DNA of 64,000 nt from the NCBI GenBank assembly GCA_027533455.1, contig JAPZUC010000012.1, forward strand, positions 1 through 64,000. Direction: 5' to 3'. This document shows positions 36,145 to 43,292 of the stretch, piece by piece. The notes under the pieces are model-generated. The model worked only from the letters and a program-made list of their open reading frames with translations. It made no database searches and had not been told where the DNA came from. Position 1 is the first letter of the stretch; every line of letters begins with the position of its first letter. Made by a program: the position numbers and the translations under genes. Source of the DNA: Porphyrobacter sp. (lineage in GTDB: Bacteria > Pseudomonadota > Alphaproteobacteria > Sphingomonadales > Sphingomonadaceae).

Positions 36145-36237
36145 CGGACCCGCAGGGTCCGCAAGGCCGACCGGCCGCCCGCAGCGACGCGCCCGCAGGG
36201 CGTGTGAGCGAGGATTTCGCACGCCGGATGGCGTGCG
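36145..36237 (+). repeat. Copy 1 of a four-hairpin intergenic structured element
   Basis: Hairpins: A cggaccc-gca-gggtccg; B ggcc-gacc-ggcc; C acgcgccc-gca-gggcgtgt; D cgcacgcc-ggat-ggcgtgcg. Linkers GCCCGCAGCGA and GAGCGAGGA are shared with copy 2. Confidence 0.85.
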
Positions 36238-36295
36238 GAAAACAAAGACTCACCGAGGACGCTCGCTGGAGGGGCGAGCGGAATGCAAAAACAAA

Positions 36296-36331
36296 CCCCC
36301 GATCACGGCGTGGGAGCGGCATGATCGGGGG
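36296..36331 (-). terminator. Intrinsic terminator for the CC_3452-like gene
   Basis: CCCCCGATCA ... TGATCGGGGG 10-bp stem; on the minus strand it is followed by TTTGTTTTTG. Confidence 0.8.
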
Positions 36332-36385: not shown

Positions 36386-36730
36386 TCAGCCGTTGCACTT
36401 GGCCAGCTCTTCGGCCTCGATCGGCTGACCGAGCACCTTGAAGGTGGCGACTTCGCCCGACTGGCGGTTCAGGCCGCGGCAGATGCGCAGCGGACGTGCG
36501 CTTGCCTTGTTGGCAACGCAGGTGGTGCCTTCGCAGGTCCAGGCAACGCCGCCAGCAACAAAGCGGGCTTCGCTCGCCGGTGCGGCCAGCGTGGCGCTGT
36601 AGTGCGGGGTGTTGGCGGCTTCGAGCGGGCTGCTGCTGGTGGCAACGCCGAAGCTGAGGCCGGTATAGATCAGAGCCGAAGCGAGGATTGCTAACTTGCC
36701 GGTGCTGGGGAGGGAGAAGGTGTTGGTCAT
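36386..36730 (-). CDS. CC_3452 family small secreted protein
   Basis: Signal-like N-terminus; SATLAAPASEARFVAGGVAWTCEGTTCVANKASARPLRICRGLNRQSGEVATF...ELAKCNG. Confidence 0.8.
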   Translation of the reverse strand: MTNTFSLPSTGKLAILASALIYTGLSFGVATSSSPLEAANTPHYSATLAAPASEARFVAGGVAWTCEGTTCVANKASARPLRICRGLNRQSGEVATFKVLGQPIEAEELAKCNG

Positions 36731-43191: not shown

Positions 43192-43292
43192 CGCACCCGC
43201 CTGCGCGGGTGCGATGTCCTCGCTCACGGGGTCTGAAGGCCCCGTCGCTGCGGGCGGGCAGTCGCCCTTGCGGGCTCCCCTCGGGAGCCCGC
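43192..43292 (-). repeat. Copy 2 of the four-hairpin structured element, minus orientation, between rpmH and rnpA
   Basis: On minus: A GCGGGCTCCC-GAG-GGGAGCCCGC; AA; B GGGC-GACT-GCCC; GCCCGCAGCGA; C ACGGGGCC-TTCA-GACCCCGT; GAGCGAGGA; CAT; D CGCACCCGC-GCAG-GCGGGTGCG. Confidence 0.85.

Follow-up and report, generated by a model that had tools for sequence, protein, structure and literature searches.

A mobile and modular four-hairpin repeat with fixed linkers and covarying stems lies behind genes of Erythrobacter-type bacteria

Intergenic palindromic repeats of about 100 nt occur in alphaproteobacteria, as exemplified by RIME and other palindromic intergenic mosaic elements of the Rhizobiales and by Bru-RS of Brucella. 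In Escherichia coli, a share of the REPs lies within ~15–20 nt of a stop codon (discussed in PMC12306157). The BOX elements of Streptococcus pneumoniae are composites of ordered modules that are mobile and capable of folding, are enriched between convergent genes and have been proposed to be mobilised in trans (PMC3049150). Here we describe a repeat family represented by two copies in a 64,000-nt stretch of DNA from Porphyrobacter sp. (assembly GCA_027533455.1, contig JAPZUC010000012.1, positions 1–64,000; hereafter the window), and compare it with these systems.

The initial annotation of the window had reported two intergenic copies of a four-hairpin element, at 36145–36237 on the plus strand and 43192–43292 on the minus strand, and both were present as described, with a folding z-score of about −4 each. 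The unit, ~95–110 nt in length, consists of hairpin A, the trinucleotide CAA, hairpin B, the linker GCCCGCAGCG, hairpin C, the linker GAGCGAGGA, hairpin D and an A/C-rich tail; both linkers are invariant or nearly so across the family alignment. The flank profile placed the limits of the conserved sequence at 2–3 nt before hairpin A and ~7–8 nt past hairpin D, within the tail, so that only A/T at −2/−1 and the A/C-rich 3′ tail are conserved in the flanks. The unit has no evident terminal inverted repeats and contains no gene of its own.

In copy 1 (plus strand), hairpin A (36145–36161) has the 7-bp stem CGGACCC/GGGTCCG with a GCA loop and is followed by CAA; hairpin B (36165–36176) reads GGCC GACC GGCC; the linker GCCCGCAGCG (36177–36186) leads to hairpin C (36187–36205; 8 bp, loop GCA), and the linker GAGCGAGGA (36206–36214) precedes hairpin D (36218–36237; 8 bp, loop GGAT), whose A/C-rich tail GAAAACAAA is kept to about +7. 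The four hairpins were identified from the sequence and the minimum-free-energy fold, with covariation in support of A, B and C, and the linkers from the family alignment. In copy 2 (minus strand), hairpin A (43271–43291) has 9 bp, or 10 bp if 43270/43292 are included, and the loop GAG; hairpin B (43256–43267) reads GGGC GACT GCCC and covaries among orthologues; then come GCCCGCAGCG (43246–43255), hairpin C (43226–43245), GAGCGAGGA (43217–43225) and hairpin D (43192–43213; 9 bp, 4-nt loop). The 29-nt block said to match at 26 positions between the copies does so, including the compensatory pair in hairpin B (GGCC/GGCC to GGGC/GCCC). The 8-bp C stems attributed to both copies hold for copy 1; on the strand used in that description, copy 2 has one A-C mismatch, and its full 8 bp form only on the opposite, mRNA strand, with one U-G wobble.

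Copy 1 folds with −57.9 kcal/mol (z −4.0) and copy 2 with z −4.5 on the operon mRNA strand and −4.0 on the other; none of 200 shuffled sequences folded as well as the window copies. We then counted changes in 97 distinct sequences from named records, a model-guided set that includes orthologous copies and is not fully independent: 95.4% of the cells were paired in the four-hairpin structure (73.1% after shuffling), two-sided changes numbered 468 (130 after shuffling), and 24 of the 27 pairs had changed on both sides somewhere. The covariation score was 0.462 as compared with 0.120 for shuffled alignments, a value reached by none of 500 shuffles, and it fell to 0.056 or less when the partner was slid. 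In hairpin B, for instance, pairs 44-56 and 45-55 of the family alignment flip between GC and CG. Because this alignment had been fitted to the model, we also counted changes in 16 rpmH-rnpA orthologues aligned simply with MAFFT (stems A–C), in which 97.9% of the cells were paired and 10 of 21 pairs showed two-sided changes, against 5.5 after shuffling. MAFFT misplaced the unequal-length stems A and D, and the counts are therefore given for model-guided alignments or for stems A–C only. Thus, the stems covary strongly, whether paralogues are compared or the orthologues of a single locus, and it is the folded form that is conserved, with the linkers kept and the stem sequence free provided that pairing holds. 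We also asked which strand acts. On the A-to-D strand, G-U pairs outnumber A-C mismatches at most positions, one frequent C-A pair in stem C running the opposite way, and the mean folding advantage of this strand is only 1.4 kcal/mol. The G-U excess is driven by two pairs and opposed by the C-A pair, and we discarded it as a decisive criterion; with an asymmetry so mixed and an energy difference so small, either strand may be the acting one.

In the Porphyrobacter sp. genome (2.9 Mb), a covariance model built from six of its own copies detected 31 copies at E ≤ 1e-3. Independently of the model, a search with the 29-nt linker-B pattern, in which variable positions were set to N and up to 3 mismatches were tolerated, gave 16 matches, whereas the reversed control gave none. 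In a first sample of 18 same-genus genomes, every one carried the family, with 2–39 copies each, and a wider sample of the order yielded matches in 44 of 248 genomes, all 44 within the same taxonomic family. In a scan with one genome per species, the carriers named among the matches listed were Erythrobacter, Porphyrobacter, Qipengyuania, Parerythrobacter and Altererythrobacter, together with Erythrobacteraceae and alphaproteobacterial metagenome bins. As far as sampled, the family is confined to Erythrobacter-type bacteria. Copies in the genome and in relatives, together with the strong covariation, bear out the proposal of a dispersed, structure-constrained element with conserved linkers and covarying stems; the genome-wide copies exclude a chance GC-rich resemblance between the two window copies, which the initial annotation had kept as its fallback. 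Comparison of the window with Rfam, also proposed there, matched no family above the gathering score, the best sub-threshold scores being 20 bits where 41 are required and 19 where 35 are required. We found no report of such repeats in Erythrobacter or Sphingomonadales in the open literature, subscription papers lying outside the scope of the search, and the family seems to be undescribed there.

The copies are also clustered along the genome, with 9 neighbour pairs at ≤7.5 kb where 2.3 are expected (p = 0.0008; 0.006 without tandems). The clusters lie at C13:252958-264747, C7:65046-68744, C17:231876-235919 and C8:36145-43291, the last being the two window copies, and suggest local spread. The genes between two of the clustered groups are ordinary.

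Genes were called with a home-made, simple codon-based gene finder. By these calls, 153 of the 162 copies examined were intergenic; the family has many, mostly extragenic copies per genome, as interspersed palindromic repeats do. We classified the 142 intergenic copies with both neighbours known as lying between convergent (55), tandem (80) or divergent (7) genes; of the spacers ≥100 nt long at the loci sampled, 18% are convergent, 56% tandem and 27% divergent. The repeat avoids promoters. It occurs in both orientations relative to the neighbouring genes, and its two ends differ in their distance to stop codons: the D end lies at a median of 7.5 nt from the facing stop codon (≤15 nt in 76 of 106 cases) and the median distance for the A end is 34 nt. 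Between convergent genes, D lies nearer to its stop codon than A does in 44 of 55 copies (p = 9e-6).

Both window copies are located behind genes. Copy 2 fills the spacer between rpmH (ribosomal protein L34, PF00468; 43050–43184, plus strand) and rnpA (RNase P protein, PF00825; 43300–43686, plus strand), the latter conserved in relatives, in antisense orientation to the operon and with its D side beginning ~4 nt past the rpmH stop codon. All 29 relatives that could be scored keep a hairpin element in this spacer; the C/D half is of type I in 17 of them and of an alternative kind in 11, and 1 is unclassified. Stem C varies in place, reading GGCC-TGAA-GGCC, GACC-TGAA-GGTC, GATC-TGAA-GATC or GATA-TGAA-TATC. 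In several species the spacer also holds a second, related repeat (an A hairpin, a GCGCGAC.GCGCGC hairpin and GGCCGGTAGGCCGAAGCCAAGGCGGACGGATGTCCGCCGCCCGGCGTTT) in tandem behind the first (L237, L238, L239, L246, L249, L252 and L259); the same tandem second repeat is found at C10:1282 and C12:140795 of the Porphyrobacter sp. genome.

Copy 1 sits between the stop codon of a HAD-family hydrolase gene (PF00702; 35518–36120, plus strand), 24 nt before its hairpin A, and a terminator-like hairpin (36296–36331, minus strand) of the convergent gene at 36386–36730. This hairpin is also present in relatives in which the copy-1 site is empty. The convergent gene (minus strand), which adjoins the HAD gene in 30 of 30 relatives, encodes a small conserved protein that has a hydrophobic, signal-like stretch at its N-terminus and matches no Pfam family. 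Directly behind copy 1, at 36251–36280 (plus strand), lies a partial extra module, CACCGAGGA followed by a type-II-like hairpin D (36260–36280), which is the remnant of a second, related type II element; the presence of this partial module makes the copy-1 site a composite. In one frame, the element (36160–36240, plus strand) also reads open, as RKADRPPAATRPQGV, and may therefore be mis-annotated as a protein tail in related genomes.

The copy-1 site proved to be fluid. No element is present there in 9 of 30 relatives; the occupied sites elsewhere hold canonical, type II, inverted, composite and truncated or remnant elements. Full type II elements, which have a different C region (CAGGCGC...GCGCCGAGGA), occupy the site in other species. 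Two further pairs of orthologous sites, one occupied and the other empty, were found between convergent genes (L069 versus L148) and between tandem genes (L120 versus L187), and at both the element begins directly behind the stop codon. The empty site of L069/L148, the only clean one, showed no target-site duplication, the flanks having diverged. One copy (L193, ~2221–2300) lacks hairpin C, with the linkers joined directly (GCCCGCAGCGAAGCGAGGA), and adjoins a full tandem copy. The family therefore displays presence and absence at orthologous sites as well as foldable units of modular composition, evident from folding, covariation, module exchange, the copy without hairpin C and the composites, as interspersed palindromic repeats do. 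Thus, the repeat family is mobile and modular.

We searched for an enzyme that might mobilise it. A search for Y1 transposases/RAYT (PF01797), positive controls included, gave no match in the Porphyrobacter sp. genome, and PF01797 was absent from 76 of 81 same-genus genomes, the other 5 having matches. One of the same genus, G002, carries several Y1 transposases yet only 5 copies of the repeat, so that the transposase and the repeat do not go together. The A-rich tail prompted us to consider a SINE-like retroelement, which was dismissed for this genome on finding no match to reverse transcriptase (PF00078), a family with matches in 13 of 41 same-genus genomes; a Tn3-type transposase, also considered as the mover, is absent from this genome. 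No recurrent transposase was found beside the 31 copies among the 25 most frequent of 119 Pfam families (71 neighbouring proteins). Given that none of these three enzyme types turned up in this genome, the repeat would have been moved in trans by another enzyme, or would represent an old expansion that is now recombining; the differing occupancy among relatives favours continuing movement.

We therefore propose, with a probability of about 0.62, that the family is a RAYT-independent palindromic mosaic repeat of the BIME/BOX type that is mobilised in trans and is tolerated, or has been co-opted, as a hairpin cluster at mRNA 3′ ends. The mover would be a host or IS enzyme other than RAYT, presumably acting in trans, and the repeat would spread between gene 3′ ends, preferably in such a way that the D end comes right after a stop codon, while exchanging modules with related repeat types. 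Once in place, it would most likely provide the neighbouring gene with a cluster of 3′-UTR hairpins, whichever way it is oriented, since a palindrome can fold on either strand. Such a cluster could shield the mRNA 3′ end or set its position and, within operons like rpmH-rnpA, could uncouple the upstream message from the downstream one. We consider this role the most likely in view of the location, the polarity and the retention at rpmH-rnpA despite module exchange. The initial annotation had named an mRNA 3′-end processing or stability element among its candidates; the location fits, and the role itself is what we infer. The 3′ location could instead reflect plain tolerance, with insertions elsewhere having been purged.

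One alternative is a purely selfish repeat with no function for the host, which transposes at random; insertions into genes and promoters would be purged, leaving the survivors behind stop codons, and the stems would covary because the folded single strand is the substrate of transposition. The patchy, fluid occupancy at the HAD locus, the range of 2–39 copies among congeners, the avoidance of divergent spacers and the tandem and clustered copies all agree with this explanation, and the weak bias towards the A-to-D strand seen in the main gene contexts is in keeping with an origin in the element itself and not in the local mRNA. However, the hairpins kept at rpmH-rnpA in every scorable relative, with pairing maintained despite exchange, would be unexpected if they were neutral, and the polarity of the D end towards stop codons would require an extra targeting rule. 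We regard a purely selfish repeat as unlikely, though it is the strongest competitor. A bolder idea, which we consider rather improbable, is that an element without evident terminal repeats, RAYT or reverse transcriptase represents a novel mode of transposition linked to the 3′ ends of transcripts: another enzyme would insert it directionally, D end first, at stop codons, and its stems would be rewritten wholesale, by conversion between copies or hairpin-templated change, the linkers staying fixed.

The family might also be one of trans-acting small RNAs or riboregulators, expressed from their own promoter on the A-to-D strand, a reading to which we give very little credence; a small RNA family had been among the candidates of the initial annotation. 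Fixed linkers between free stems do resemble a protein- or RNA-binding scaffold, and the weak strand bias would suit it; however, the copies are distributed like insertions in both orientations to genes, exchange modules, share no promoter candidate (upstream conservation ends at 2–3 nt) and belong to no Rfam family; with strand asymmetry weak as well, a stand-alone small RNA family finds no support. Least probable of all, and refuted for this genome to the extent that PF01797 is informative, is a REP/RAYT system of REP-type hairpins moved by a Y1 tyrosine transposase: of the REP/RAYT-like mobile element once suggested, the mobility stands, as the empty and differently filled sites show, and so does a palindromic, extragenic, repetitive and mosaic character behind stop codons, but PF01797 is lacking here and in most congeners, four hairpins in a fixed block, and not one hairpin of 20–40 nt, make up the unit, and the foot of the hairpins bears no GTAG/GGAG-type tetranucleotide, the linkers being CAA, GCCCGCAGCG and GAGCGAGGA.

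The RAYT-independent palindromic mosaic repeat that we favour adds an apparently undescribed family for a widespread marine and freshwater group. Its build of fixed linkers and free stems, together with the stop-codon polarity, offers a clean comparative system for asking what moves repeats without RAYT, and also whether hairpin clusters at 3′ ends have been recruited for the tuning of operons like rpmH-rnpA, in which one product is required in far larger amounts than the other.

The family is a member of the wide group of interspersed palindromic mosaic repeats of bacteria (BIME, BOX, RIME type) and works as they do. Like the BIMEs and REPs of enterobacteria and pseudomonads, it is extragenic, palindromic, mosaic and present in many copies behind genes; unlike them, it is built of four different hairpins that always follow in the same order, its linkers being conserved and its stems free, and has neither the REP tetranucleotide nor an accompanying PF01797 protein. 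It shares with BOX its modularity and its enrichment between convergent genes, but BOX has terminal inverted repeats resembling those of an IS, none of which are evident here, and the sequence, modules and host differ. From RIME and Bru-RS it is set apart, by description rather than by sequence, through its occurrence in Sphingomonadales and its four-hairpin layout.
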